Positions 7,764 to 57,168 of a stretch of 64,000 nucleotides of DNA are shown here, in pieces. Source of the DNA: Polaromonas sp. GTDB lineage: Bacteria; Pseudomonadota; Gammaproteobacteria; Burkholderiales; Burkholderiaceae_C. Where the stretch lies: NCBI GenBank assembly GCA_021153985.1, contig JAJKJM010000083.1, positions 1-64,000 of the forward strand. Reading direction: 5' to 3'. The notes beneath the pieces are model-generated. The model saw nothing but the letters and a program-made list of their open reading frames with translations, searched no databases and was not told the origin of the DNA. Made by a program: the position numbers and the translations under genes. Position 1 is the first letter of the stretch. Each line of letters begins with the position of its first letter.

Positions 7764-7772
7764 GGCAATGGA

Positions 7773-7829
7773 TTGCTATTAAAAAAGTAGCTGCTCGCCC
7801 ATGCACTTATTGGGCTGGAGCCCGATTGG
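7773..7829. repeat. Interspersed repeat copy B
   Basis: The block ttgctattaaaaaagtagct is followed by gctcgcccatgcacttat and tgggctggagcccgattgg. It shares TTGCTATnnAA...AGCT and GGGCTGGAGCCC with the copy at 26143-26199. It fills the gap between the YkgJ-like gene and the receptor gene. No reading frame is seen in it. Confidence 0.6.
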
Positions 7830-7907
7830 ATGCTGAAAGACGGCGCGGGGGCCGGCGGCAGACCTGTATTGTCGCTCGCGCTGCCAACCGCCGCCTTGGT
7901 TTTGCGA

Positions 7908-16875: not shown

Positions 16876-16902
16876 ATCTACTCGCCTTTTTTAAGTAAAT
16901 AG

Positions 16903-16957
16903 TGCCCGTAGCCCATACGCTATATGAACTTGTCGCTATAAAAATCATAGCAAAATC
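16903..16957. repeat. Interspersed repeat copy C
   Basis: The blocks tagcccatacgctatat and gtcgctataaaaatcatagc match the order seen in copies A and E. It fills most of the gap between parA and the hydrolase gene. No hairpin or reading frame stands out. Confidence 0.55.
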
Positions 16958-25971: not shown

Positions 25972-26142
25972 GGTGGCGAGGGTGCGGGCGCTGGGTGCGG
26001 GTGTTCGAAGAGGAACACGGATTGTGGGCAAGCCGCCTTATTTATAGAACAACTGATTTGTTCCTTCTAAATCACCAAAACATCCGAAGAGGGTGAAATG
26101 CCCAGATGTCGATGAGCGCTTCGGCGCACTGCGCTAGTCGAC

Positions 26143-26199
26143 TTTGCTATCAATTCAGGAGCTTATGGCCAAGACCAGATATGGGCTGGAGCCCTGAAA
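26143..26199. repeat. Interspersed repeat copy D
   Basis: The blocks tttgctatcaattcaggagc and atatgggctggagccctgaaa form the inverted orientation of copies A, C and E. Its complement reads gggctccagcccatat...gctcctgaattgatagc, which matches copy E (31481-31537) especially well. It fills the gap downstream of the thioesterase gene. Confidence 0.65.
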
Positions 26200-26208
26200 G
26201 ACCATTAA

Positions 26209-26667
26209 TTATCTTGGCAGCAGCATGGCCATGGTGATGCGCGACACACAGGTCAGTTCGCCCGCGTCATTGGTCATCTCGATTTGCCACACCTGGGTGC
26301 TGCGGCCTATGTGCACCGGGCGTGCCGTGCCGGTGACCCAGCCGCTGGTCGTGCCCCTGAGGTGGTTGGCGTTGATGTCCAGCCCGACGGCGCGATGCCC
26401 TTCGGGCGCCGCAAACGCAGCACCGCAGGAGCCCAGGGTTTCAGCCAGCGTCACCGACACCCCGCCGTGCAACAGGCCGTAAGGCTGCACGGTGCGGCGG
26501 TCCACGGGAACGCGGGCGCGGATGAAGTCGTCGCCGACCTCCAGGAATTCGATGCCCAGGTGCGTGATGGCGGTATCGGCGCCGGCGGCGGTGAGCAGTT
26601 CAACGGAGATGGGTTGTTGCCAGATGCGCATGATCGTTCCAGGGATGGGTGGTTGTTCAGCGTTCAC
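26209..26667 (-). CDS. PaaI-type hotdog-fold acyl-CoA thioesterase
   Basis: The 152-aa protein contains the hotdog-fold motif LLHGGVSVTLAETLGSCGAAF at residues about 66-86, which holds the catalytic acidic residue on the central helix, and GLDINANHLRGTTSGWVTGTARP. This pattern resembles the YdiI/EntH subgroup, hydrolases of aroyl- or acyl-CoA. An alternative start is ATG 26631, giving MRIWQQP. It stands alone. The physiological thioester is unknown. Confidence 0.88.
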   Translation of the reverse strand: MNAEQPPIPGTIMRIWQQPISVELLTAAGADTAITHLGIEFLEVGDDFIRARVPVDRRTVQPYGLLHGGVSVTLAETLGSCGAAFAAPEGHRAVGLDINANHLRGTTSGWVTGTARPVHIGRSTQVWQIEMTNDAGELTCVSRITMAMLLPR

Positions 26668-28710: not shown

Positions 28711-28826
28711 GATTCCCCTGCTGGTTTGGCGCGTCATCGCACCGGTCAGCGGGCGGGTCTGTCCCGCAAGGCCGCACGCCTTGTCCTTTTGGCCTTCACG
28801 GCCGCCCCCTTTGGAGATTCTTCGCG

Positions 28827-29978
28827 ATGTTTCGCCGCCGCTTCCTTTCGCTTGCCCCTCAAATCGCCGCTTTTGCCGCCGCCCCCGCTTTTATCCGCAA
28901 CGCCTATGCCCAGGACGGCCTGACGGCCAAGGCCATCACCATCGGCAGCACGGGCGCGACCAGCGGCCCGCTGGCCGGCGTGGGCGCCGAGCTCAAGCTG
29001 GGCGTGGATGCGGCTATGGGCCAGATCAACGCCAAGGGCGGCGTCAACGGCCGCGTGCTGCAGTTCCAGATGCTGGACGACGGCTATGTGCCGCAGCGCA
29101 GCGCTGACAACGTGAAGAAGATGATCGGCGACGGCAGCATTTTTGCGCTGATGTCCTGCGTCGGCACGCCGAACAACACCGCCATCGTGCCGTTGATTGA
29201 AGAGTCCAACCTGCCTTACGTCGGGCCGCGCTCGGGTGCTTCGTCGCTGCGCAAGCCCGGCATGCGCAACGTGTTCCATGTGCGCGCCAGCTTCACCGAC
29301 GAAACCCAGCGCCTGGTGCAGCGCATCGTGAGCATGGGCATCAAGGACCTGGCCGTTGTGTATCTGGACAACGACTACGGCAAGGAAGTGCTGGCCGACG
29401 TCAACCGCGCACTGCAGACGCAGGGCGCCAAGCCGGCAGCGCAAGCGGCACTGGCCGTTGACGGCAAGAACCTCAATGACGTGGTGGGCCAGATCATCGC
29501 CGGCAAACCCGGTGCGGTGCTGCTGGGCACGGCAGGCTCGGCTTCGGTCGGCCTGATTGCCGCGCTGAAGAAAGCATCGCCCATGCTGCCGATTGCCGGC
29601 CTCAGCGTCACGCTGGCCGGCGACGGCATCAAGGCACTGGGCGCGGCCGGCACCGGCCTGGCGCTGACGATGGTGTTCCCGGACCCGTACCGCGCCAAGC
29701 TGCAAGTGGTGCGCGACTACCAGGCCGCCATGCGCGCCATCGGCCAGCAGGAGTTCTCGCTCGGCAGCCTGGAGAGCTACATCAACACCCACGTCATGGC
29801 CGAAGGCCTGGAGCGCGCCGGCCGCGATGTGACGCGCGCCAAGCTGCGCACTGCGCTGGCCGGTTTGCAGAAGTTTGACCTCGGTGGTTTCAGCGTCGAC
29901 TACGCCGCGCCGCCTTTCGCAGGTTCGAAATACGTGGACCTGGGCGTGCTGGGCTCTGGCGGCCGTTTTATCGGCTAA
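28827..29978 (+). CDS. Branched-chain amino acid-type ABC substrate-binding protein, first copy
   Basis: The 383-aa periplasmic receptor has a Tat-like signal (FRRRFLSLAPQIAAFAAAPAF, cleavage near NAYA-QDGL). It then shows the Liv-type type I periplasmic binding fold: KAITIGSTGATSGPLAGVGAELKLG, NAKGGVNGRVLQFQMLDDGY, and the LESYINTHVMAEGLERAGRDV end. It should bind amino acids or related small organic molecules. It is one of two tandem, highly similar genes. No permease or ATPase gene is adjacent, so it is an orphan receptor that may serve a transporter elsewhere. Confidence 0.9.
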   Translation: MFRRRFLSLAPQIAAFAAAPAFIRNAYAQDGLTAKAITIGSTGATSGPLAGVGAELKLGVDAAMGQINAKGGVNGRVLQFQMLDDGYVPQRSADNVKKMIGDGSIFALMSCVGTPNNTAIVPLIEESNLPYVGPRSGASSLRKPGMRNVFHVRASFTDETQRLVQRIVSMGIKDLAVVYLDNDYGKEVLADVNRALQTQGAKPAAQAALAVDGKNLNDVVGQIIAGKPGAVLLGTAGSASVGLIAALKKASPMLPIAGLSVTLAGDGIKALGAAGTGLALTMVFPDPYRAKLQVVRDYQAAMRAIGQQEFSLGSLESYINTHVMAEGLERAGRDVTRAKLRTALAGLQKFDLGGFSVDYAAPPFAGSKYVDLGVLGSGGRFIG

Positions 29979-30003
29979 GCGAACAGGCGATCAAGCTTGA
30001 ACA

Positions 30004-30039
30004 AAAGCCCCGGCCAGTCGATGCACCGGCCGGGGCTTT
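30004..30039 (+). terminator. Terminator after the first receptor gene
   Basis: A 12-bp stem is formed by aaagccccggcc (30004) and ggccggggcttt (30028) around a 12-base loop. The tail is short in T. The stem and loop wording (agtcgatg) is repeated after the second gene copy. Confidence 0.75.
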
Positions 30040-30170: not shown

Positions 30171-30264
30171 TATTCGGCCGCTTCGCGGCCGGTGTCCCCT
30201 GCAGGGTCCTCACGGCCTTGTTCTTTTGGCCTGTTTGGCCACCCCCCGTTTCGGAGACTTCGCG

Positions 30265-31419
30265 ATGTTTCGCCGCCGCTTTCTTTCGCTCGCCCCCCAA
30301 TTGGCCGCTCTTGCCGCAGCCCCCGCATTCATCCGCAATGCCTACGCCCAGGAAGGTCTGAGCGCCAAGGCCGTGACCATCGGCTCTTCGGGCGCACTCA
30401 GCGGCCCGCTGGCCGGCTTCGGCGCCGACCTCAAGCTCGGCGTGGAAGCGGCCATGGGCCAGATCAATGCCAAAGGCGGCGTCAACGGCCGCACGCTGCA
30501 GTTCCAGATGATGGACGACGCCTATGTGCCGCAGCGCACCTCGGACAACGTCAAGAAGATGATCGGCGACGGCAGCGTTTTTGCGCTGATGTCCTGCATC
30601 GGCACGCCCAACAACGCCGCCATCGTGCCGCTGATTGAAGAGTCGAATCTGCCGTATGTGGCGCCGCTGACCGGCGCGTCCTCGCTGCGCAAGCCCGGCA
30701 TGCGCAACGTGTTCCACGTGCGCGCCAGCTACACCGACGAAACCCAGCGCCTGGTGCAAAAACTGGTAGGCATGGGCATCAAAGACCTGGCCATCGTCTA
30801 CCTGGACAACGGCTTCGGCAAGGAAGTGCTGGCCGACGCCGTGCAGGCGCTGCAAGCGCAGGGCGTGAAGGCTGTCGCACAGGTGGCGCTCGCGACCGAC
30901 GGCAAAAACCTCAATGAGGTTGTGAGCCAGGTCAGCGCCGCCAAGCCCGGCGCCGTGCTGTTGGGCACAGCCGGCGCCGCTTCGGTGGGCGTGATCGCCG
31001 CGCTCAAGAAAGCTTCCCCCATGTTGCCAGTGGCGGGCCTGAGCGTGACGCTCACCGCTGACGGCCTCAAGAGCCTGGGCGCTGCAGGCTCGGGCCTGGC
31101 GCTGACCATGGTGTTCCCCGACCCCTACCGTGCCAAGACCCAGGTGGTGCGCGACTACCAGGCCGCGATGCGCGCCATCGGCCAGCAGGAGTTTTCGCTC
31201 GGCAGCCTGGAGAGCTATGTCAACACCCGCGTGCTGGCCGAAGGCCTGGAACGCGCCGGCCGCGACGTGACACGCGCCAAGCTGCGCACTGCGCTGGCCA
31301 GCGTGCAGAAGTTCGACCTGGGTGGTTTCAGCGTGGACTACGCCGCCGCATCGCCGTTTGTGGGCTCCAAATTTGTGGACCTGGGCGTGCTGGGGGCCGG
31401 TGGCCGCTTTATCGGTTAA
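30265..31419 (+). CDS. Branched-chain amino acid-type ABC substrate-binding protein, second copy
   Basis: The 384-aa protein mirrors the gene at 28827: signal FRRRFLSLAPQLAALAAAPAF, then KAVTIGSSGALSGPLAGFGADLKLG, and the same LESYVNTRVLAEGLERAGRDV end. Most differences are conservative, with a few around the pocket (VGPRSG versus VAPLTG near residue 131), so the ligands may differ. The ATG at 30265 is equivalent to the first copy's start; an upstream in-frame start at 30226 lacks support. No permease or ATPase genes are adjacent. Confidence 0.9.
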   Translation: MFRRRFLSLAPQLAALAAAPAFIRNAYAQEGLSAKAVTIGSSGALSGPLAGFGADLKLGVEAAMGQINAKGGVNGRTLQFQMMDDAYVPQRTSDNVKKMIGDGSVFALMSCIGTPNNAAIVPLIEESNLPYVAPLTGASSLRKPGMRNVFHVRASYTDETQRLVQKLVGMGIKDLAIVYLDNGFGKEVLADAVQALQAQGVKAVAQVALATDGKNLNEVVSQVSAAKPGAVLLGTAGAASVGVIAALKKASPMLPVAGLSVTLTADGLKSLGAAGSGLALTMVFPDPYRAKTQVVRDYQAAMRAIGQQEFSLGSLESYVNTRVLAEGLERAGRDVTRAKLRTALASVQKFDLGGFSVDYAAASPFVGSKFVDLGVLGAGGRFIG

Positions 31420-31442
31420 GCCTCAAGGATTGAACAAAAAAG

Positions 31443-31475
31443 CCCCGGCCAGTCGATGAACTGGCCGGGGATTTT
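31443..31475 (+). terminator. Terminator after the second receptor gene
   Basis: A perfect 11-bp stem (ccccggccagt at 31443, actggccgggg at 31460, six-base loop) is followed by atttttatat. It is a strong intrinsic terminator. Confidence 0.9.
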
Positions 31476-31480
31476 TATAT

Positions 31481-31537
31481 CAAATTGGCCTCTAGCCCAT
31501 ATGCTGCATAGGCTAGTAGCTCCTGAATTAATAGCAA
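31481..31537. repeat. Interspersed repeat copy E
   Basis: This copy has caaattggcctctagcccat, atgctgcata and then agtagctcctgaattaatag. It is the fullest copy in the direct orientation and lies between the receptor terminator and the convergent permease gene. Confidence 0.65.
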
Positions 31538-31548
31538 CGCGGAACGGA

Positions 31549-37267: not shown

Positions 37268-39325
37268 ATGACGCTTGCACCCGCCCGGCCCTCGACGACG
37301 ACGCCTTTGCCCGTACCGCAGATCCGCCACTACCAAAACTGGCTCAAAGCCACACGCGGCCTGACTTTCGACAACTACGACGCGCTGTGGCGCTGGTCGG
37401 TGACCGATCTCGACGCTTTCTGGCAAAGCATCTGGGACTATTTTGAGATCCAGTCGCCCACCGCGCATACGGCCGTGCTGGGCCGGCGCAGTATGCCGGG
37501 GGCTGAATGGTTTCCTGGCGCGCGGGGCAACTATGCGCAGCAGGTGTTTCGCCATGTCGCGGCGGCAGAAGCGGCCGGCGTGCCCGCGCTTGTCAGCCAC
37601 GGCGAGGCCAGCCTGGCCCGTGGCGAAGCACCGCGCGAACTGGGTTGGGCCGAGATGCGCCGCCAGTCGGCCTCGCTGGCCCTGCACCTGAAGGCGCAGG
37701 GTGTGCAGCCTGGTGATCGCGTTGCCGCCTACTTGCCCAACACGCTCGAGACCATGGTGGCCTTTCTCGCGGTGGTGAGCATTGGCGCCGTGTGGAGCGT
37801 GTGCGCGCCCGACATGGGTACGCCCGCCGTGCTGGACCGCTTTGCGCAGATCAAACCCAAGGTGCTGATCGCCTGCAACGGCGTGCGCTACGGCGGCAAG
37901 GATATCGACCGCCGGGAGGCGGTGGCCGAGCTGGTGGCCGCGCTGCCCAGCGTCACGCATGTGATCGGCCACAGCATACTGTCCGCTACGAATTCGATAG
38001 CGGGAAGCACAGATTACACCTTGGCTACAGCCCGAAATGATGCTCAAACTTCAGCGTTTGAACCGTTCTGGCTGCCGTTCGACCATCCGCTATGGATCGT
38101 CTACTCCAGCGGCACCACCGGCCTGCCCAAGCCCATCGTGCATGGCCATGGCGGCGTGGCGTTGGTAGGGCTGGCCCTGCTGCGCCTGCACAACGACCTG
38201 GCGCCCAGCTATGCCGACGCGACCAACCCCGAGCGCTTTCACTGGTACAGCTCCACCGGCTGGATCATGTGGAACGTGCAGGCCGCCAGCCTGCTCAACG
38301 GCACCACCTGCTGCATTTACGACGGCAACCCGGCGGGCAGCAGCAAAGACGCGCCTGACTGGACGACGCTCTGGCGTTTTGCGGCCAACACGCGTGCAAC
38401 TTTCTTTGGTGCGGGTGCCGCGTTCTTTGCGAACTGCATGAAGGCAGGGATTGATATTGCGCAGTGCGGAGACTTGAGCCGGCTTCGAACGCTGGGGACC
38501 ACCGGATCGCCGCTGAGCGAGGACACGCAGCGGTGGGGCACGGCGCAATTCGCAAAGATCGGGAATTCCAATATCTGGTGGTGCAACATTTCTGGGGGGA
38601 CGGACTTTGCTGGTGCTTTCATCGGTGGCAATCGCGAGCTCCCCGTCGTCCCCGGCGAGATGCAATGCCGCATCCTCGGCTGCGCCGTCGAAGCCTGGAA
38701 CGACAAGGGCGAGTCCGTTGTCGATGAAGTCGGCGAACTGGTCTGCACACAGCCGCTGCCGTCGATGCCGCTCTACTTTGTCGGCGACGAAGGCAACCAG
38801 CGTTACCTGGCCAGCTACTTCGACACCTACCCCGGCGTATGGCGCCACGGCGACTGGCTCAAGGTCACGCCCTCGGGCAGTTGCATCATCTATGGCCGCA
38901 GCGACGCCACCATCAACCGCCACGGCCTGCGCATGGGAACCAGCGAGCTTTACAGCGCGATCGAAGCTTTGCCCGAGGTGCTCGATTCGATGGTGGTCGA
39001 CCTGGAATACCTGGGCCGCGAAAGCTATATGCCGCTGTTCGTCGTGCTGCGGCCCGGCCATGTGCTTGACGATGCCATGAAGGCGCGCCTGAACCAGGCC
39101 GTCAAGACAGCGCTGTCGCCGCGCTTTGTGCCCAACGACATCTTCGCTGTGCCAGAAATCCCGCGCACGCTCTCGGGCAAGAAGCAGGAGCTGCCGATCA
39201 AAAAGCTGCTGCTGGGCCAGCCGCTGGAGAAAGTGGTGAACCGCGATGCGATGGCCAACCCCGGCTGCCTGGACTGGTATGTAGCTTTCGCACGTCAACG
39301 CGCCGGCGCCAACGCCCCCAGGTAA
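37268..39325 (+). CDS. Acetoacetyl-CoA synthetase with a repeat-derived internal stretch
   Basis: The 685-aa adenylate-forming enzyme activates acetoacetate to acetoacetyl-CoA with ATP. The N-terminal WRWSVTDLDAFWQSIWDYF and the VYSSGTTGLPKPIVHGHGG P-loop-like motif, YGRSDATINRHGLRMGTSELY and PRTLSGKKQELPIKKLL are the classic ACS/AACS elements. Residues about 239-261 are encoded by DNA that matches the interspersed repeat (37984-38048), placed in frame just before FEPFW. The rest of the length is usual. The 3' end overlaps the convergent ATPase gene by 31 bases. Role: use of ketone bodies or polyhydroxybutyrate breakdown products. Confidence 0.93.
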   Translation: MTLAPARPSTTTPLPVPQIRHYQNWLKATRGLTFDNYDALWRWSVTDLDAFWQSIWDYFEIQSPTAHTAVLGRRSMPGAEWFPGARGNYAQQVFRHVAAAEAAGVPALVSHGEASLARGEAPRELGWAEMRRQSASLALHLKAQGVQPGDRVAAYLPNTLETMVAFLAVVSIGAVWSVCAPDMGTPAVLDRFAQIKPKVLIACNGVRYGGKDIDRREAVAELVAALPSVTHVIGHSILSATNSIAGSTDYTLATARNDAQTSAFEPFWLPFDHPLWIVYSSGTTGLPKPIVHGHGGVALVGLALLRLHNDLAPSYADATNPERFHWYSSTGWIMWNVQAASLLNGTTCCIYDGNPAGSSKDAPDWTTLWRFAANTRATFFGAGAAFFANCMKAGIDIAQCGDLSRLRTLGTTGSPLSEDTQRWGTAQFAKIGNSNIWWCNISGGTDFAGAFIGGNRELPVVPGEMQCRILGCAVEAWNDKGESVVDEVGELVCTQPLPSMPLYFVGDEGNQRYLASYFDTYPGVWRHGDWLKVTPSGSCIIYGRSDATINRHGLRMGTSELYSAIEALPEVLDSMVVDLEYLGRESYMPLFVVLRPGHVLDDAMKARLNQAVKTALSPRFVPNDIFAVPEIPRTLSGKKQELPIKKLLLGQPLEKVVNRDAMANPGCLDWYVAFARQRAGANAPR
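37984..38048. repeat. Interspersed repeat copy F, inside a coding region
   Basis: The segment cgctacgaattcgatagc ... agattacaccttggctacag ... cccgaaatgatgctcaaa has the block order of copies B and D: GCTAnnAATTC, AGC, a core, GGCTnnAGCCC and GAAA. It is translated within acetoacetyl-CoA synthetase as a Ser/Thr/Ala-rich stretch without frameshift. Confidence 0.55.
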
Positions 39326-56274: not shown

Positions 56275-57168
56275 ATGGCGGTTAAACTCGCGGGCATGCC
56301 GCTGCCTCGCTCCGTCCACGGATTATTTGCTATCTATTTAATAGCTACTAACGCTTATGCCAATTCGCCTTGCGCCGAATATGCCGCAAAACTTCCGAAT
56401 GTGAAGCGGGACCTGTGCGAAGCGGCCCAGCTGCAACCGGCGGGGCCGCGTTCGGTCAACGGGCAGGCGCTTTGGGTGCGCGACATCAAACCGGAAAACG
56501 CCACGTTGCGCGTGCTGGTGGTGGGTGCGATCCACGGTGACGAGTTGTCCTCCGGCGCGGTGGCGCTGCACTGGATCCAGTTCGCGGCGCAGCCTCCGCT
56601 GGATGCGCCCCAGGTAATTCACTGGCGCTTTGTGCCGGTGCTTAACCCCGACGGTGTTCTCGCCCGGCCGCCGCGCCGCGTCAACGCGCGTGGCGTCGAT
56701 TTGAACCGCAACTTTCCCACGCCCAACTGGGAGCGCGATGCCAAGGTCTATTGGGAAAAACGCACCGGCAAAGACCCGCGCCGTTTTCCCGGACCCAAGC
56801 CGCTGTCCGAACCCGAATCGCGCTTTTTGCATGAGCAGATGCAAAGCTTCAAGCCCCAGCTCATCGTCAGCATCCATGCGCCGTATGGCGTGCTCGACTT
56901 TGACGGGCCGTCTGTTCCGCCCTCCAGGCTGGGGCGCCTGTATCTTGACCAGGTAGGCATCTTCCCGGGCTCACTGGGCAATTACGGCGGCATCCACAAA
57001 GGGGTGCCGGTCGTGACCATCGAGTTGCCCAACTCCACCCGCACGCCGCTGGACGCCGAGATGCGCCAGATGTGGCTGGATCTTTTGCGCTGGGTGAACG
57101 AGAAGGTGGCGGTGCAGGGCGGCGTTGCCCCAGGCGTGCCGGCGGCAACATCGCATCGCGCGCCCTGA
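56275..57168 (+). CDS. M14-family zinc peptidase (MpaA-like) with repeat-derived signal peptide
   Basis: The 297-aa protein has an M14-type catalytic domain: GAIHGDELSSG (His and Glu zinc ligands), DGVLARPPRRVNARGVDLNRNFPTPNW, SIHAP (third ligand) and VVTIELPNSTR (catalytic Glu). It is closest to murein peptide amidase A-like enzymes that act on cell-wall peptides. The signal-peptide core GLFAIYLIATNAYAN (residues 16-30) is encoded by a fragment of the interspersed repeat. An ATG at 56296 is an alternative start. It is an isolated gene. Confidence 0.88.
   Translation: MAVKLAGMPLPRSVHGLFAIYLIATNAYANSPCAEYAAKLPNVKRDLCEAAQLQPAGPRSVNGQALWVRDIKPENATLRVLVVGAIHGDELSSGAVALHWIQFAAQPPLDAPQVIHWRFVPVLNPDGVLARPPRRVNARGVDLNRNFPTPNWERDAKVYWEKRTGKDPRRFPGPKPLSEPESRFLHEQMQSFKPQLIVSIHAPYGVLDFDGPSVPPSRLGRLYLDQVGIFPGSLGNYGGIHKGVPVVTIELPNSTRTPLDAEMRQMWLDLLRWVNEKVAVQGGVAPGVPAATSHRAP
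56326..56371. repeat. Interspersed repeat fragment G, coding for a signal-peptide core
   Basis: The segment tttgctatctatttaatagctactaacgcttatgcc matches the first half of the repeat, with its TTGCTATnnnnTTAATAGCT order and TAGCGC/TAACGC core. It lies inside the M14-type gene. The match to copies B and D covers only the first half of the element. Confidence 0.5.

Follow-up and report, generated by a model that had tools for sequence, protein, structure and literature searches.

A 63-bp interspersed repeat of Comamonadaceae lies in frame within the acetoacetyl-CoA synthetase gene without adding length

Background

How does a copy of an interspersed DNA repeat come to lie within the coding region of an otherwise normal metabolic enzyme? 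The question is raised by the acetoacetyl-CoA synthetase (AACS) gene in a stretch of 64,000 nucleotides of a Polaromonas genome (hereafter the window), in which a first-pass annotation recognised the block order of an intergenic repeat and proposed a domesticated, frame-preserving insertion that gave the enzyme an additional linker loop. Repeats inside bacterial genes are already known and, in the passages of the papers considered here, are described as insertions that decorate proteins (PMC10969869, PMC3733652, PMC2759123). Rickettsia palindromic elements (RPE) of about 150 bp are described there as integrating and giving in-frame fusions (PMC10969869, citing Ogata et al. 2000), the enterobacterial RU-1/2/3 elements of 103-168 bp as fusions or intragenic insertions (PMC2759123), and two Xanthomonas species have REPs at roughly corresponding positions of recB (PMC3733652). 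Here we follow the AACS copy across the bacterial family; L and G numbers denote loci and genomes.

Results and discussion

The ORF at 37268-39325 encodes a normal AACS, with scores above both curated family cut-offs over its length (NCBIfam PRK03584, 946 bits, cut-off 639; TIGR01217, 677 bits, cut-off 521), and its nearest solved relative by sequence is PDB 4WD1 (E 5.8e-188). The features of the window are as follows, with bit scores from the covariance model R1 described below.

37268-39325, + strand: acetoacetyl-CoA synthetase (acetoacetate--CoA ligase) gene, ORF of 685 aa (PRK03584, TIGR01217, PDB 4WD1)
37984-38046, + strand: in-frame interspersed-repeat copy in AACS, 63 positions = 21 codons, residues 240-260, ATNSIAGSTDYTLATARNDAQ
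2271-2345, - strand: repeat copy overlapping an ORF end, 65.5 bits, training set
7771-7845, + strand: repeat copy near the start of the ORF at 7830, 67.8 bits, training set
16881-16955, - strand: intergenic repeat copy, 65.8 bits, training set
26142-26216, + strand: intergenic repeat copy, 71.2 bits, training set
31465-31539, - strand: intergenic repeat copy between convergent ORFs, 81.2 bits, training set
56325-56399, + strand: weak, possibly decayed repeat copy, 23.3 bits, E 0.0014

R1 was built from an alignment of five window copies (2271, 7771, 16881, 26142 and 31465), the AACS stretch being left out, and matched the gene at 37981-38055 with 24.9 bits (E 0.00053), ungapped over model positions 1-75 of 75. 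A PSSM from AACS-masked copies gave the same site 37.1 bits, against 16.1 for the best of 1000 synonymous resamplings, and GC3 is 0.39 in the repeat stretch vs 0.81 in the whole gene. At 37985-38001, GCTACGAATTCGATAGC fits the pattern GCTANNAATTNNNTAGC with 0 mismatches, and the end block GGCTACAGCCCGAAATGATGC, present at 38023-38043, is weak evidence because the pattern was partly shaped on the same site. The reading frame is kept through the stretch with zero stop codons. Hence both the repeat match and the in-frame, stop-free course claimed in the first-pass annotation were borne out; allowing up to 2 mismatches, GCTANNAATTNNNTAGC has 12 matches in the 64-kb window where 1.41 are expected by chance. 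The copies in the window have 37-51% GC, and the one at 31465-31539 forms an inverted-repeat pair with 26144-26194. A first pass of R1 through the own genome, a 4.5-Mb draft in 230 contigs, returned 1063 candidates; all 150 that were scored, the AACS site not among them, were significant (down to 36.9 bits), which puts the repeat at no fewer than 150 copies. Across 53 genomes, R1 found repeat matches in 34, although the counts per genome are too low for distant dialects, since R1 was trained on the own genome, the filters were stricter and at most 91 candidates were scored. The whole 64-kb window had 0 matches to Rfam families reaching the gathering score.

Subsequently, we derived a family profile of 63 positions by iterated nhmmer. 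The input comprised the window, loci of its own genome, loci and other stretches from additional genomes of the family, and the DNA flanking 80 named AACS loci, with orthologous AACS genes masked. Its consensus is TGCTATTAATTTAATAGCTGCTTGCGCATGTAGCACATGGGCTGGAGGCCGATTTGACTTAAA, to which the window AACS copy is identical at 38/63 positions, and its 188 hits include the 5 window copies entered twice and other overlapping stretches. Two AACS genes of a distant second type, in L211 and L232, stayed unmasked; the single hit touching them overlaps the last 16 bases of that in L211, far from the site, so that they have no effect on the site profile. The AACS-like loci (L001-L030, L061-L089 and L090-L169) number 139, of which 116 were scored once 7 duplicates, identified by contigs of equal length, and 16 loci without the exact anchor pattern had been left out; further duplicates may remain, and the same 7 were left out of the length, GC3-edge, pairing and score analyses. 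The ungapped scores were bimodal: 49 genes scored above 0 (+1.7 to +61 bits; 43 above 20), 61 scored below -40, eight of them distant AACS relatives, and 6 fell between -40 and 0. The best match lay at the identical codon position in 48 of the 49 positive genes, the remaining one (L007) being offset by 12 nt, with four extra residues in its protein there. Positive genes came from Polaromonas (7/7, omitting two records set aside as duplicates, L137 with +46 and L111 with -19), Rhodoferax (5/6), Acidovorax (3/3), Comamonas (1/1), Paenacidovorax (1/1), Paracidovorax (1/2) and Curvibacter (1/3). Among the scored genes the motif was absent from Ramlibacter (0/7), Hydrogenophaga (0/9) and Limnohabitans (0/2), and all those of the first two genera were below -40. 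The peptide encoded by the repeat in AACS reads A-x-N-S-I-A-...-A-T-A-R-N-D-A, parts of which (TAR[ND]DA) are kept in repeat-free relatives.

To compare the DNA match with the constraint imposed by the protein, 23 codons of each gene were redrawn 1000 times at random according to the codon usage of that gene, the encoded protein being left unchanged. In 52 of 53 AACS genes (four of them duplicates) the observed score was above all 1000 draws, and in the remaining gene it was reached once; GC3 in this test was 0.34 in the stretch vs 0.83 in the AACS genes. The dip in GC3 starts and stops at the repeat edges: in 42 motif genes GC3 fell from 0.69 at codon -2 to 0.12 at -1 and 0.02 at 0, stayed mostly low through codon 20 with codons 7, 12 and 15 high, and recovered to 0.50-0.67 over codons 21-24 and then to 0.79 (codon 25). 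No such dip was present in 61 AACS genes without the motif. These comparisons strongly support a likeness to the repeat that goes beyond what the protein sequence demands, and they likewise give strong support to codons 240-260 of the window AACS being a member of an interspersed repeat family of Comamonadaceae with copies of about 63 bp.

The expectation that relatives have a shorter loop, to which an insertion would have added a linker, was contradicted by the lengths of the proteins. Two conserved anchors were 54-65 residues apart in the 50 genes that carry the motif (median 54) and 54-66 residues apart in 69 genes without it (median 58), where unscored genes (including L148, with an R1 match at the AACS site) and six intermediates were classed as without motif; in 12 outgroup proteins the distance was 50-59 residues. 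None of the 131 measured orthologues and outgroups (50-66 aa) has a loop longer by 21 residues, and the aligned AACS proteins have zero gaps corresponding to the repeat stretch, contrary to the predicted gap at residues 239-261 in most relatives. Against 4WD1, the gaps between the flanking conserved blocks are of 1-2 residues, 5 in total; an AlphaFold2 model of AACS (nine rows) had a mean pLDDT of 62 and was too poor for use. Because repeat-bearing and repeat-free orthologues share the same length range, we rejected the insertion of a linker loop. Additional sequence does occur elsewhere in the enzyme: near residue 431, L013, L019, L021, L023, L024 and L026 have 27-39 residues, compared with about six in the window protein. 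In blastn, five of these six inserts had similar DNA elsewhere, including far from AACS (e.g. L220, L222, L224, L206 and L246), and the other matches fell in AACS of relatives. Thus AACS does take in insertions of other repeats, and the 63-bp repeat is not among these.

Copies also lie within other genes, and in some of these the length is preserved. Of the 347 copies collected from 12 genomes, 65 fall within long ORFs whose GC3 exceeds 0.6 to either side of the copy, some of these reading frames surely being spurious. All ten plausible repeat-bearing proteins matched a Pfam family, with the repeat inside the best-matched stretch in 8/10 (not in L193, and at its edge in L219). TrpF against 1LBM and Cca against 4WBY align ungapped across the repeat. 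Length neutrality is not absolute, because Maf has 4 extra residues at the repeat compared with 4OO0 and 8 compared with 4P0E, and RsmA has 7-8 compared with 3UZU and 7AFO. By eye, the repeat occupies corresponding sites in two genera in an APH-like kinase (L280/L200) and likewise in a FemAB-like protein (L173/L219).

The state of the AACS site follows that of the genome. Among 46 genomes with both kinds of data, in which L077, L081 and L086, lacking the exact anchor pattern, were scored separately for this comparison, the AACS score was above 0 in 27 of 32 with repeat matches (G004 being counted positive at merely 1.7 bits) and in 0 of 14 without (Fisher, 4.8e-8). Within the genus of the window, G032 has an AACS protein that is 89% identical, 0 genome repeat matches and a site score of -100. 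In five of the 32 genomes with repeat matches the AACS score is not above 0 (G025, -71; G029, -19; G131, -17; G035, -0.4; G015, -0.1), an observation that counts against replacement of the tract. On the AACS tree, the genome repeats and the AACS motif change 11 and 14 times, respectively, with frequent switching, and the motif state is patchy (14 changes vs a shuffled mean of 14.8). In seven independent, well-supported pairs differing in genome repeats, AACS differed in the same direction in 4-6 and in the opposite direction in 0 (median p 0.031, range 0.031-0.125).

The repeat family falls into dialects: with profiles of five groups, 287 of 311 non-AACS copies, left out of the profile when scored, were placed in the group they came from. 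Of six AACS copies from genomes with a profile, five fit the dialect of their own genome best (L001, 3.4 bits; L061, 7.9; L066, 9.8; L072, 22.4; L084, 2.3), although part of this fit could come from shared descent; for the sixth, L070, a closely similar foreign dialect was slightly better (-0.6 vs -3.2 for its own). We further compared ten pairs of genes, six of which entered a comparison with flanking fourfold sites and five of those the significance tests (L065-L067 was excluded, its upstream flank being unaligned). Pairs differing in motif state diverged more in the tract than at fourfold sites: 37/63 vs 32/121 for L061 (G159, motif) and L002 (G032, no motif; p 2.6e-5), 29/63 vs 26/126 for L062 and L064 (p 0.0006), and 36/63 vs 41/119 for L001 and L002 (p 0.004), a pair that shares L002 with the first and so is not independent. 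Two motif/motif pairs showed no such excess (12/63 vs 30/125; 6/63 vs 25/127), and the sixth fourfold pair, L004-L005, outside the significance tests, had 15/63 vs 24/129. A tract that diverges above near-neutral sites when its state changes is consistent with replacement as a block. Motif/motif pairs also differ more in the tract than in whole flanks (e.g. 0.21 vs 0.08 and 0.07), and since the stretch is variable even between them, strong directional change would fit as well; rapid turnover once selection is relaxed could look like replacement.

Taken with the homology, the same codon position across genera, the unchanged length, the sharp edges, the co-occurrence and the dialect fit, the data suggest, with a probability that we put at roughly 0.5, that the AACS tract has replaced a variable stretch without changing its length, is kept matched to the repeat population of its genome, and is not an insertion. 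Other genomic copies would overwrite the tract as one block, probably through conversion or template switching, wherever the encoded peptide is tolerated, and the tract would be renewed as dialects turn over. Once the repeat population is lost, it would go unrenewed and be replaced or return quickly to ordinary GC-rich codons. Conversion between dispersed 63-bp copies is what we infer here and not an event directly observed. More generally, and as a tentative, somewhat doubtful extension, the family might spread and be renewed in coding sequence by base-for-base overwriting, with copies in AACS, TrpF, Cca and others concerted with the dialect and vanishing with the repeat population.

Either conversion or selection at the DNA level might thus maintain the tract. 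According to the latter, which is the main alternative and in our estimate rather unlikely, the repeat would be recognised by a host factor (a nucleoid, RNA-processing or replication protein) and AACS would be one useful address of many, maintained through point mutation and selection, with joint decay upon loss of the factor. This would account for the way in which the AACS motif and the genome repeats are lost together, for synonymous sites held to the motif in many genera and for dialects that shift in step. It agrees less well with the tract of close relatives of differing state, which diverges beyond fourfold sites and above plain relaxation, or with two further results on structure and on candidate factors. 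The pairing of AACS copies equals its position-specific synonymous null (stem I, 3.90 vs 3.91 of 5 pairs; stem II, 4.31 vs 4.23 of 9 pairs), and a conserved RNA hairpin in AACS was rejected accordingly. Among the 347 copies, only stem II pairs 26-40 (0.50 vs 0.39) and 28-38 (0.66 vs 0.43) are clearly above expectation, the rest being about as expected; pairs 24-42, 25-41 and 26-40 reach 0.92-0.97 in G000 and G145 and 0.04-0.06 in G091, and because pairing depends on the dialect, stem II is not a firm family feature. The candidate factors do not separate the groups either. PF01797 (Y1 transposase/RAYT) occurs in 33 of 37 genomes, namely in 22/23 with repeat matches and 11/14 without, and is missing from the repeat-rich G201; PF00078 (reverse transcriptase) occurs in 12/22 genomes with matches and 6/12 without. 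Both were set aside as mobilising or renewing enzymes, since in the genomes compared neither distinguishes those with repeat matches from those without.

A single ancient insertion into the AACS of early Comamonadaceae, with about 20 native residues lost nearby and later erosion in repeat-free lineages, is unlikely. In its favour, repeated loss would yield the patchy state on the AACS tree, the TAR[ND]DA parts of the peptide are common to repeat-free relatives, and some intergenic copies resemble 64-89 bp of added DNA, which would mean insertion. At one intergenic locus, repeat-free relatives are 64-89 bp shorter in 7/15 for the L092 copy and in 6/14 for the L090 copy, the difference in the remaining relatives running from a deficit of 59 bp to an excess of about 300 bp. 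The copies in L114, L152 and L153, which can be aligned with these same relatives, show other length differences. For the window copy at 16881-16955, 4/6 repeat-free relatives are 67-74 bp shorter, and for the L094 copy, aligned to relatives of the window 16891 locus, 0/8 are shorter by that amount. Among the compared loci, no close pair offered a clean empty site, and the alignments thus give a mixed picture of intergenic copies as insertions. Against the ancient insertion stand the 131 measured proteins, none of which retains the longer loop, as well as TrpF and Cca, which would require the same exact compensation; such an insertion would also leave unexplained why AACS copies fit the dialect of their genome.

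A very improbable alternative reverses the direction, so that the repeat family descended from the AACS stretch and is still fed by it: AACS is the locus found with the repeat at an orthologous site in many genera, but other genes hold copies too, some at corresponding sites (the APH-like and FemAB-like genes above), and dialects vary by genome, with AACS following them instead of one fixed form. Finally, chance or protein-driven similarity, which could appeal to the modest match of the window copy by itself (R1 E-value in 64 kb, consensus identity), is effectively ruled out by the bimodal scores over 116 genes, with 48/49 positives at one position, and by the 52/53 resampling outcome.

A review cites the Polaromonas JS666 genome paper for MITEs. 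Among the literature matches listed, mostly read as titles and starts of abstracts, in which sequence is not searchable, none was seen to describe the AT-rich AACS repeat, and the passages of PMC2755013 concern CRISPR only. As far as the cited passages go, the AACS repeat differs from the described RPEs, intragenic REPs and RU elements, which are there insertions or fusions. Like RPEs, which are short in-frame repeats within unrelated metabolic protein genes (PMC10969869), the AACS copy is placed in frame; unlike them, as far as those passages describe them, it is about 63 bp long, adds no residues, occupies one orthologous site across genera and follows the genome dialect. Similarly to the GTAG/CGTC REPs, which are palindromic, the repeat has a high copy number and is mostly intergenic with some copies entirely within ORFs (in the passages of PMC3733652), but its consensus TGCTATTAATTTAATAGCTGCTTGCGC... 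is without a conserved GTAG or CGTC end tag and the presence of the tyrosine transposase does not follow the repeat in the genomes compared; the main text of PMC3733652 has 0 mentions of Acidovorax, Polaromonas, Rhodoferax, Delftia or Burkholderiales. The Beta-proteobacterial repeat element (BRE) is listed for Polaromonas, Rhodoferax, Acidovorax and Delftia, and as here some of its copies lie wholly within coding sequences; in contrast to the 63-position profile and the 37-51% GC of our copies, the Bordetella BRE has 75-91 bp and 69% GC (passages of PMC3110155). By description rather than sequence, BRE may instead correspond to the GC-rich insert that some AACS relatives have near residue 431. 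The RU-1/2/3 elements, which are MITE-like, resemble the present family as intergenic repeats that also encode peptides within genes and differ in taxon and size (PMC2759123).

Conclusions

The term domesticated, applied to the AACS copy in the first-pass annotation, is doubtful, because a copy that tracks the dialect of its genome and is missing in the 14 tested genomes lacking repeat matches looks like a continuing member of the repeat population and not like a fossil adopted by the protein. Compared with the intragenic repeats in the passages cited, what differs here is the zero added length, the overridden codon usage and the adherence to the dialect. Since the repeat occupies the same 21 codons across genera, follows the dialect and is absent in the tested genomes that lack repeat matches, AACS would serve as a built-in reporter, one alignable orthologous locus that would allow the renewal, drift and loss of a repeat population to be followed quantitatively throughout a bacterial family. 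There is a warning in this as well, as protein alignments of Comamonadaceae can contain repeat-derived stretches, and the locus could be used to ask whether conversion, instead of transposition, spreads short repeats in bacteria.

Further insertions in acetoacetyl-CoA synthetase

In acetoacetyl-CoA synthetase (AACS) of six loci from relatives (L013, L019, L021, L023, L024 and L026), we observed 27-39 in-frame residues after residue ~431 of the window protein, which itself has about six there. For five of these six stretches, blastn against the other sequences collected returned similar DNA, with 9-26 matches each, part of them in the AACS genes of relatives and part far away from AACS. Two types occur among these five, one GC-rich (GGGCCGCCCC...GGGGGCAGC) and the other an inverted repeat (TTCGCCCTGAGCCTGTCGAAGG, in L021). 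Another in-frame insertion, Gly/Pro-rich (GHGRKPGGG...), was found near residue 523 (window protein numbering) in L023 and L024 and is shorter in L008, L009, L010 and L025.

Possibly duplicated reading frames and a weak repeat copy in the window

A 300-nt block occurs in both of two neighbouring window ORFs (85% identity). Downstream of each ORF lies a GC-rich hairpin, and the two hairpins are nearly the same (92%):

28805-29104 and 30243-30542, block copies
30003-30039 and 31438-31474, hairpins

Together, the block and the hairpins suggest a tandem duplication that included a terminator-like hairpin. A weak copy of the interspersed repeat (56325-56399; 23.3 bits with covariance model R1) lies in the start region of an ORF and is possibly decaying.

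Repeat copies inside other genes

The repeat family found in AACS also occurs inside further genes, in other Comamonadaceae:

L255 8648-9403 (-), TrpF
L209 15346-16677 (-), Cca
L242 16103-16819 (+), Maf
L259 9732-10547 (-), RsmA
L246 13001-13849 (+), FtsJ-like methyltransferase
L193 619-2076 (+), KdtA

Compared with solved relatives, protein length is unchanged in TrpF and Cca, whereas Maf and RsmA are slightly longer. The repeat is also in frame in one protein of two genomes (L097 16911-16960; L148 5880-5933), which contains ...CGPINDxGQ...LGEHTDEVL... and is presumably CoA-transferase-like; in the comparison made at this site, relatives that lack the repeat were shorter by 0-12 bp. Two further proteins carry the repeat in two genera each, at sites matching by eye:

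L280 4648-5754 (-) and L200 9580-10671 (+), APH-like kinase
L173 1206-2666 (-) and L219 7784-9097 (-), FemAB-like protein

Both pairs are candidates for additional orthologous intragenic copies.
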